This document shows positions 29,285 through 48,942 of a DNA stretch of 64,000 nt, one piece after another; position 1 is the stretch's first letter; every line of letters starts with the position of its first letter. Location: positions 248,001-312,000 of the forward strand of contig NZ_VCNL01000001.1 of assembly GCF_007671685.1 (NCBI RefSeq). Direction: 5' to 3'. Source of the DNA: Halorubrum salsamenti. GTDB lineage: Archaea; Halobacteriota; Halobacteria; Halobacteriales; Haloferacaceae. A program made the position numbers and the translations under genes. The notes beneath the pieces are model-generated. The model made no database searches. It worked only from the letters and a program-made list of their open reading frames with translations, and was not told where the DNA came from.

Positions 29285-29346
29285 GCTTTTAAACTGCTGT
29301 TGGCGGCGGATCGGTCTTGACTGGGTTCGAGCCACCGGTTGATTGC

Positions 29347-29613
29347 TTATAAGTCGTTGCTGGCAGAGCGATGGTGAACACCGCCAAAGCCCCAGCCGCT
29401 CGGCAATACGTGATCGACCGTTTCCCGATAAACACCGCCAAAGCCCCAGCCGCTCGGCAATACGTGATCGCGACTGTCCCTTTGAGTCCCACCACCCACA
29501 CACCGCAGCCTCACGCCTCCCCAGCCTCGCGGTTCGCGCTCTCCGAGCGCTCACCGCGTCCCTCGCGCGTGCGACTCGCGGCCGCTGGCCGCTCGTCGGC
29601 ACGCGCCACCGCA
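29347..29613 (+). repeat. Structured intergenic element R1 (paralogue of R2), candidate ncRNA
   Basis: Gene-free DNA between two GTPase genes. A TTATAA box (29347-29352) precedes a core (29377-29613) that shares with R2 the blocks AACACCGCC[A/G]AAGCCCCAGCCGC, CTG[T/C]CCCTT[T/C]GAGTCCCACC and CCTCCCCAGCCTCG, and the ending GGCACGCGCC[A/G]CCGCA. Two nested hairpins are visible: 29529-29533/29553-29557 enclosing 29536-29540/29546-29550, and GCGTGC/GCACGC (29567-29572/29599-29604) enclosing 29578-29583/29587-29592. R2 has stems at the same places with different sequence. Transcription is inferred from the TATA box only. Confidence 0.6.
29377..29470 (+). repeat. Perfect 40-bp direct repeat inside R1
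   Basis: Two identical 40-bp copies at 29377-29416 and 29431-29470, separated by 14 bp (period 54). Each begins AACACCGCCAAAGCCCCAGC and ends TACGTGATCG. In R2 the corresponding block occurs once, so R1 has a local duplication of its 5' module. Two copies with one spacer do not make a CRISPR array. Confidence 0.9.
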
Positions 29614-47738: not shown

Positions 47739-48048
47739 GGCTCCCTTGGAATCCTATTCTTCAGGCGATTTCTCGCCTGAAACAGCTGGTCGATGAGAGG
47801 TGCGAACTATCCTATGCTCGGAGATAAAACTAATAGACAGCGCATGGTACTCGGTTCTATGGGGTACAACGCCCTCGGCTTGGAGCAGGTCTTGATACTC
47901 TTGCTGGGCGTCAGCATGGTTTTGATTGGTGGAGCAGGTCTACTCGGATTCTTCTAACTGAGCTTACTGTACTGAGCGGTTCGTGAGTCCACTGTATTGA
48001 CCGCAACCGCTGCGGAATGTGTCACTTATCGAGGTTTTAAATAGAGTC
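47739..48048 (+). mobile_element. Decayed IS6-like cassette carrying a 37-residue peptide gene
   Basis: A 310-bp unit whose ends match the 17-bp terminal repeat of the intact cassette (48131-48728) at 13 of 17 positions each: left GGCTCCCTTGGAATCCT (47739-47755), right 47738-type inverse at 48032-48048. The flanks AAGATCTT and AACATGTT match at 6 of 8. A 9-bp hairpin (47760-47768/47773-47781) lies just inside the left end. No transposase. The insertion sits at the TATA box of R2. Confidence 0.6.
47844..47957 (+). CDS. 37-residue single-TM peptide in a decayed cassette
   Basis: A short frame from ATG 47844 (second in-frame ATG 47859) to TAA 47955-47957. It encodes a polar start and one hydrophobic helix (QVLILLLGVSMVLIGGAG) ending LLGFF. 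Its base composition is more AT-rich than the chromosome around it, like the gene in the neighbouring cassette. It occupies the cargo position between the degenerate terminal repeats. Translation is unproven. Confidence 0.45.
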   Translation: MVLGSMGYNALGLEQVLILLLGVSMVLIGGAGLLGFF

Positions 48049-48130
48049 AACATGTTCCATCGTACGGCCGAGCGGTTGGAGGTTCGGAAGCGTTCACCGT
48101 CGGTCCGTCAGCACCGATTTATAAACGATC

Positions 48131-48728
48131 GGCTCTGTTGAAATCCTATTCTTCAGACAGGTTCCCACCAGAAACAGCCGGTCACTGAAGAGTGCTTCGT
48201 GACTAATAACTGTAATTTATTATGTTCGGACGAAAAGGAGTTACCATGCCCTCCCTAAAGCGCGGTTATATTGTTGCGGCGCTGGTGCTGATTGGCGTCT
48301 GTGGACTTGCGTATTGGACAGTCATGGCCCGAGTTCTAATCGGAGCGGGGTTCCTGCTTTCAGCGCTCGTCGTCGCCGTGCTAGTGTATTACGGCGGCGC
48401 GGAACGCCACACACTCACTCGCGCTGTGATCGCTGTCACGGTTGTCTACGGCGTCTTCACGGTCCAACTGCTACCGGCTGTCGTCGCCGCCAGTGTCGTC
48501 TACCTCTCCGCGTGGCTCACCGGACCTGACAGTCCGTTCGACGCACCCGACACGGAGATACTCCCAGTTAGACAGACGACTACCGAGGAGTCGGAAGGCG
48601 CTGACTGACTGCCCGGATAACTCGTACAGATCGGTCTGCTATCGTTCTTTACCGAGCGATTCCTAAGGCACCTGTACTGACCGCGAGTGGGTTAAAATAT
48701 ATCACTTGCTGAGGATTTCAACAGAGCC
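48131..48728 (+). mobile_element. 598-bp transposase-less cassette with 17-bp TIRs and 8-bp target duplication
   Basis: Ends are perfect 17-bp inverted repeats, GGCTCTGTTGAAATCCT at 48131-48147 and its complement at 48712-48728. They are flanked by a perfect 8-bp direct repeat AAACGATC (48123-48130 and 48729-48736). The end sequence and 8-bp duplication resemble the IS6 family. Inside is only one gene, for a membrane protein (48246-48608). It must have been moved by a transposase in trans. Confidence 0.85.
48246..48608 (+). CDS. Cargo membrane protein of the IS6-like cassette
   Basis: 120 residues with three to four hydrophobic helices (about 8-25, 28-46, 59-79 and 81-91) and an acidic hydrophilic tail (DSPFDAPDTEILPVRQTTTEESEGAD). 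The ATG at 48246 is chosen because GGAG stands five bases before it, an unusual clear ribosome-binding site here; an in-frame ATG also exists at 48222. No transposase or nuclease motif. It resembles small haloarchaeal membrane proteins, function unknown, and is the sole cargo of a mobile unit. Confidence 0.7.
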   Translation: MPSLKRGYIVAALVLIGVCGLAYWTVMARVLIGAGFLLSALVVAVLVYYGGAERHTLTRAVIAVTVVYGVFTVQLLPAVVAASVVYLSAWLTGPDSPFDAPDTEILPVRQTTTEESEGAD

Positions 48729-48942
48729 AAACGATCGGCTGTGGCCTCGTCCGTGTCTTCCGTGATTCGATCGCCTCACACATCGCGATCGATCGCGAAA
48801 TCGTCGCTCCCATTCACAAATCGAGCATCAAAAGCGAACCGACCGAGCCGGACTCAGCGTGTCGAAAACGAGTCGGCGGCGCGCGTTCACGCGCCCGATC
48901 GATTCTCTCACCCCGATTCCTCTCGCCCGATACCGTCCCCGT

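Follow-up and report, generated by a model that had tools for sequence, protein, structure and literature searches.

A transposase-less IS-type unit with a single gene is present at 48131-48728 of the window, the whole 64,000-nucleotide stretch of Halorubrum salsamenti DNA analyzed here, and its reality, as first described, is confirmed. The genome that carries it comprises 3.67 Mb in 21 contigs. The unit is very probably a mobile insertion cassette: the L and R end modules of an ISHla2/ISHxa2-like insertion sequence of the IS5 family enclose a gene with its own promoter, and the transposase of that element would move the unit in trans. The original prediction had described a 598-bp unit with perfect 17-bp ends and a perfect 8-bp duplication whose only gene encodes a 120-residue membrane protein, and each part of this description agrees with the features in Table 1. 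No transposase family match was found inside the unit, and the conserved 120-aa gene is the only gene there. The start of this gene is placed at the ATG at 48246 because the homologues begin with MPS at this position, leaving a longer start at 48222 unsupported. The L-type end module is common to cassettes with unrelated cargo and to autonomous IS5 elements, and the R-type end module is common to cassettes with unrelated cargo. The probable promoter and ribosome-binding region was assigned from a by-eye alignment of the upstream regions of L134-L139.

Table 1. Features of the cassette and its surroundings, with positions in the window, and autonomous elements with the same ends in other genomes
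Feature	Position	Strand	Details
Older degenerate member of the same element family	47739..48048	+	310 bp; no intact gene; no TSD
Target repeat copy, dispersed ~57-bp Halorubrum repeat	48072..48130	+	48/57 matches to the unit at 48072; resumes after 48737
Left 8-bp target-site duplication (TSD) copy, AAACGATC	48123..48130	.	8/8 identical to right copy
Whole cassette, transposase-less, one cargo gene	48131..48728	+	598 bp; perfect terminal inverted repeats (TIRs) and TSD; absent at syntenic locus of relatives
Left TIR, GGCTCTGTTGAAATCCT	48131..48147	+	17/17 against right end
L-type end module	48131..48205	+	Profile HMM (70 L ends, other elements), E 1.3e-20
Probable cargo promoter/ribosome-binding region (TAATTTATTA, GGAG)	48206..48245	+	Kept in homologous copies
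Cargo gene, 120-aa small membrane protein	48246..48608	+	120 codons; conserved open frame; 3 hydrophobic segments
R-type end module	48667..48728	-	Profile HMM (68 R ends), E 4.1e-20
Right TIR	48712..48728	-	Reverse complement of left TIR GGCTCTGTTGAAATCCT, 17/17
Right 8-bp TSD copy, AAACGATC	48729..48736	.	
Autonomous element L122			TSD ACTGTTCC, 8/8; IS5 transposase
Autonomous element L203 (ISHxa2)			TSD CACCGTCT, 8/8; IS5 transposase; T-R ends
Autonomous element L211			TSD GAGCTTCT, 8/8; IS5 transposase
Autonomous element L216			TSD GATTTTCT, 8/8; IS5 transposase
Autonomous element L213			TSD 7/8; IS5 transposase
Autonomous element L111			TSD GTTATTTT, 8/8; transposase frame-disrupted

At its locus the cassette is a derived insertion, since the syntenic locus lacks it in 21 relatives and copies of the target repeat are uninterrupted. 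The gene neighbors, named from reading the proteins, are glutamate-cysteine-ligase-like (GCS-like) and DoxX-like, and both are present at the syntenic locus in these 21 relatives; a profile search of 29 DoxX-containing loci from relatives, these 21 among them, detected neither L nor R ends. In relative G014 (L162) the site is empty, yet the same cassette is present elsewhere in that genome. When the cassette flanks are joined with a single AAACGATC, they align across the junction with many copies of the ~57-bp repeat, including L180 in the same genome, and these other copies, which read through the insertion point, represent paralogous empty sites. The empty-site comparison proposed with the original prediction thus shows that the region is not ancestral. 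The repeat itself is intergenic, dispersed and partly tandem, contains a TATA-like TTTATAA, and occurs in many copies across Halorubrum genomes (L180-L194), with a further copy inside the window near 29343-29399 on the minus strand. The degenerate family member ends 82 bp upstream of the cassette and is recognized by the L-end HMM (47740-47812, E 2.7e-15) and the R-end HMM (47985-48046, E 8e-10), with no ORF of at least 60 aa within it; its left flank (...TTTATAAGATCTT) also resembles the end of a ~57-bp repeat unit.

The ends and the 8-bp duplications prove transposition of the element family, because 33 of 157 facing end pairs in the examined loci have identical flanks (8/8), each exactly 8 bp long, whereas an offset control with flanks taken 10 bp further out never reached 7/8. 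Three end types are distinguished, L (conserved over ~65–75 bp), R (~62 bp) and T, which lies beside the transposase and differs from the cassette R end past about 17 bp. A 614-bp query matched 40 places in the own genome, almost all at the ends only, and the 16-bp end with up to 2 mismatches occurs there 58 times compared with once for the reversed control. With up to 1 mismatch the 17-mer end was found in all 34 same-genus genomes searched (up to 69 copies each; controls none), and a 27-base L-end pattern with up to 3 mismatches in 66 of 195 genomes of the order and 32 of 66 genera, with zero matches for its control among the genomes listed.

Collected from the own and other haloarchaeal genomes, 38 non-redundant elements have a TSD of at least 7/8 (31 at 8/8), of which 6 contain a transposase and 32 are transposase-less; these counts are examples and not densities, since the census covers stretches around loci, not whole genomes, and the loci were chosen for having end pairs. 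In this census a single cargo family accounts for the window cassette, L135 and L138, one cassette is present in two species as L118 and L238, and part of the units are very short, with marginal ORFs. The target sites are AT-rich, with 41% GC compared with 68.5% in the window. Some family members of 108–400 bp are MITE-like. Several cassettes with intact ends have no matching TSD (for example, C17:202258-202647 and C17:219967-220587), which speaks against simple transposition of these, as recombination between cassettes or another mechanism is needed. At C1:785410-795134 (L019:2411-12135), two inverted units have reciprocal flanks, TCGGCAAC/AAAATAAC and GTTGCCGA/GTTATTTT, which indicate a past inversion between two elements; no mechanism is drawn from them, since replicative intramolecular inversion and recombination of inverted cassettes give the same pattern. 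A 108-bp end-to-end unit at L232:283-390 has ends of a sister type with the subterminal motif GTGCGAGA, and ends of this type also border larger units in L226 and L248.

The 120-aa cargo protein matches no Pfam or NCBIfam family above cut-off. Open-frame homologues are present in 14 other Halorubrum genomes with 55–94% identity, the nearest named relatives being those of Halorubrum sp. CSM-61 and Hrr. halophilum, and a sixteenth match (L149) is weak and doubtful. Three Halorubrum genomes have the cargo in an intact cassette, each time at a different site, namely the window, L135, where a cassette 94% identical to that of the window occupies another site (TSD GGTTTTTG), and L138, where the cassette carries the same cargo family (75%, TSD GAATAATC). 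Six copies have no intact end pair but L/R remnants at the expected places (L136, L137, L139, L141, L144, and L145), for which a profile built from other cassettes gives strong support in L141 (E 2.8e-11) and moderate support in the other five (~3e-4 to 7e-4). L144 and L145 have 673 bp in common at 97% in different surroundings, indicating that this unit has moved too. In six further genomes the cargo is resident, without ends (L140, L142, L143, and L146-L148), with L142 syntenic to L143 and L146-L148 syntenic to one another. A midpoint-rooted cargo tree separates the resident copies from the cassette and decayed copies, but the branch between the two groups is weak (57/65). A host gene thus appears to have entered the cassette format, this being the presumed direction of the first step, and to have left it as a fixed gene where the ends decay.

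The cargo coding sequence is under purifying selection, with dN/dS values of 0.14–0.34 for the closest copies. The earlier view of a mobile unit that carries a gene other than a transposase, unlike a non-coding MITE, is upheld by this conserved and selected gene. The cargo may give some benefit, as had been suggested: it is under purifying selection, but resident copies also exist. Its product is probably a small protein of the membrane or cell surface that is useful to the host or the replicon, because the cargo of the cassettes is probably enriched for membrane proteins and lipoproteins.

Listing of the genes between paired ends, a step proposed with the original prediction, returned diverse Pfam content and many unrelated genes. 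Duplicated cassettes carry a periplasmic-binding lipoprotein, a HicA-type toxin with its partner, DUF998, rhomboid and other membrane proteins, and between ends without matching TSD are found cydAB, histidine kinases, an MFS transporter and a SnoaL-like protein. The cydA and cydB genes (cytochrome bd oxidase) lie between intact L/R ends without TSD at L013:2058-5523 (own contig C17:175557-179022). The same cassette with a HicA-type toxin and partner (DUF7387) is located at different sites in two Halorubrum species (L118:730-1488 and L238:286-1044), with TSDs of GAATGAGG/GAATGAGA and CTACGGCA, respectively. An ORF with at least one hydrophobic segment was found in 22 of the 32 duplicated transposase-less units and one with at least two segments in 15, compared with 25% and 7% of random same-length pieces of the window. 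A bias of the cargo toward small membrane proteins and lipoproteins is thus probable and not proven, as this crude control consists of one region read in all six frames. At L219:291-2094 (G029:C1:341790-343593) of Hrr. lacusprofundi, an IS5 transposase is accompanied by a protein of 233 aa that has a signal peptide and, at its C terminus, a PGF motif. The Hrr. lacusprofundi transposon passenger Hlac_3088 is a PGF-TERM surface protein for which virus exclusion has been proposed, and during virus infection its expression was, at one time point, above that of the S-layer gene (PMC10544981). Judging by description and position, the 233-aa protein is probably Hlac_3088.

By sequence, the cassette ends are those of ISHla2/ISHxa2-like elements of the IS5 family, since the same ends with TSDs of exactly 8 bp surround an IS5 transposase elsewhere. 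In other genomes, cassette ends and matching TSDs enclose a 273-aa transposase in six duplicated autonomous elements (Table 1). This protein is of the IS5 family (NF033579, 217 bits with a cut-off of 140; Pfam DDE_Tnp_1), and its closest relatives by RefSeq name are ISHla2 and ISHxa2; no papers on these two elements by name were found in the literature searched, which included few subscription papers. An 8-bp duplication presumably fits the ISH1 subgroup of IS5. The end pairings in the duplicated autonomous elements are L-T, T-L, and T-R, the last being that of a single element (L203), the one case from which recognition of the R end is deduced. The own genome contains one intact copy of the IS5 transposase (C20:30768-31586). 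Its assembly also breaks at IS5 ends, at C2:78849-78922 and C4:1-77, with the shared flank GAAATTTC, and at C3:1-77 and C8:1-74, with the shared flank TCATCTTC; these contig-end pairs look like two further copies of the insertion sequence collapsed in assembly, and the shared flanks predict the joins C2-IS-C4 and C8-IS-C3. The two IS1595 genes of the own genome are without matching ends, and IS1595 was rejected as mobilizer.

In the proposed mechanism, the gene and its promoter would be held between the L (~65–75 bp) and R (62 bp) modules, and the 273-aa DDE transposase of an ISHla2/ISHxa2-kind element would act on these modules in trans. New cargo may be gained if a host gene becomes enclosed by two end modules and transposition then makes use of the outermost pair, as suggested by two composite units with matching outer duplications. 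One of these (L016) is an R...R unit of 6,032 bp with the outer TSD AATGGCCC and inner ends inside, and the other (L232) spans 3,025 bp with the outer TSD GATCACCC and contains the 108-bp end-to-end unit and a 1,184-bp unit around further genes. If the outermost ends are used, everything between them would be mobilized, which provides a simple route to the capture of host genes.

The original prediction had assigned the unit to the IS6 family, and movement by an IS6 transposase through replicative transposition is now very improbable. The features on which this assignment was based do occur in IS6 elements, in which a GG tip, a cTGTt motif and an 8-bp duplication are present (PMC7986276), and the GG...TCTGTTG tips with their 8-bp TSD are indeed shared with IS6, but they are not diagnostic of it. 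IS6 transposases also exist in the own genome, but both of these genes lack the cassette ends, and IS6 was rejected as mobilizer. All six duplicated autonomous elements found with these ends have an IS5-family transposase, one of them frame-disrupted, and a review of IS6 mentions one member with a passenger gene (PMC7986276). Mobilization by a different transposase of the same end specificity is possible. That the inverted repeats are coincidental in a non-mobile, ancestral region is a reading for which no supporting points were found and whose likelihood is negligible, given the absence of the cassette at the syntenic locus in relatives, including the one with the same cassette elsewhere, the uninterrupted target repeats at the junction and the TSD statistics.

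An ordinary MITE with a chance ORF would also be short, without transposase and part of a dispersed family, and some members are indeed MITE-like in size. We regard this explanation as extremely unlikely, as the protein is kept as an open frame in 14 other genomes, in and out of cassettes, with low dN/dS values, and other members carry cydAB, histidine kinase, HicA, MFS and substrate-binding genes. The cassette may instead be a deletion derivative, formed when an autonomous IS5 element with this passenger gene already inside it lost its transposase. In agreement with this, an extra gene beside the transposase is frequent in autonomous members (L115, L123, L125, L203, L213, L216, L219, and ISHla2), being of the RDD family in ISHxa2 and an 88-aa membrane ORF in ISHla2. 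This origin is nevertheless unlikely, because the transposase side of the autonomous elements has a T-type end whereas the window cassette and the majority of the others are bounded by L and R ends, this cargo was seen in no autonomous element, and cassette cargo occurs in both orientations relative to L. The placement of the resident, end-less copies on one side of the unrooted tree, with the relevant branch weak, also fits chromosomal capture. Loss of the transposase from a passenger-bearing element is possible for some cassettes, but the window cassette has an R and not a T end. The reading retained is that of a gene held between L and R modules, very probably moved in trans by an IS5-family transposase.

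The mobile insertion cassette concept is already known in bacteria, whereas no description of an archaeal many-cargo cassette family of this scale and cargo bias was found in the literature searched (few subscription papers, no ISfinder). Trans-moved single-gene cassettes in bacteria are mostly isolated cases linked to resistance genes; in the family described here, a wide range of unrelated genes is combined with one set of ends across Halorubrum, and the ends extend to further genera of haloarchaea. Tentatively, one IS5-family end pair may provide haloarchaea with a common format for gene cassettes. The pool of transposase-less cassettes, spread over the genus and to some extent over other genera, would take up host genes time and again, with a preference for those of small membrane or surface proteins (some possibly acting in virus exclusion or as toxin-antitoxin systems), carry them from one replicon or species to another and leave them fixed once the ends decay. 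Such cassettes, apparently moved by the enzyme of a related transposon, give these archaea a stock of portable single genes. The membrane and surface bias deserves attention because a passenger surface protein of Hrr. lacusprofundi, reported to be highly expressed after virus infection, is carried by a transposon that probably belongs to the same family (PMC10544981). The apparent life cycle is exemplified by an intact cassette, copies with decayed ends and a resident gene, so that ideas on how cassette cargo originates and is selected can be put to the test.

The closest counterparts of the window cassette are the mobile insertion cassettes of bacteria, MIC231/IS231 of Bacillus cereus, mic-qnrD and mic-qnrS2, in which a passenger likewise lies between IS-type inverted repeats, without transposase and with a TSD (PMC3913671, PMC3129680). 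For MIC231 the cognate insertion sequence is known, and these cassettes are moved in trans (PMC3913671, PMC3129680). The window cassette has the same features, namely two inverted repeats (17/17), a passenger without transposase, a TSD and a cognate insertion sequence (L122, L203, L211, and L216), but MIC231 belongs with IS231 of the IS4 family in a bacterium and the window cassette with IS5 in an archaeon. The bacterial reports compared also concern single cases (PMC3913671, PMC3129680), in contrast to the dozens of cassettes here, with unrelated cargo, long shared modules and a genus-wide distribution. ISHla2 and ISHxa2 have the same TIRs as the cassette, L or R modules, the 8-bp duplication and small extra genes beside the transposase; unlike the cassette, they encode the transposase and have one end of T type. 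Transporter insertion sequences (tIS) resemble the cassette in carrying passenger genes unrelated to transposition (PMC3129680, PMC7986276) but keep their transposase, and several relatives of the window cassette are tIS, whereas the window cassette is not. Nor is it a MITE, because it is coding, with a conserved gene under purifying selection. HqIRS32, an ISH2-type MITE of Haloquadratum, is similarly transposase-free, has IS-type ends and is moved in trans, and of the Haloquadratum MITEs described it alone has an ORF that is likely to code for protein (PMC3119063), whereas the family of the window cassette has many different coding cargos on one set of ends.
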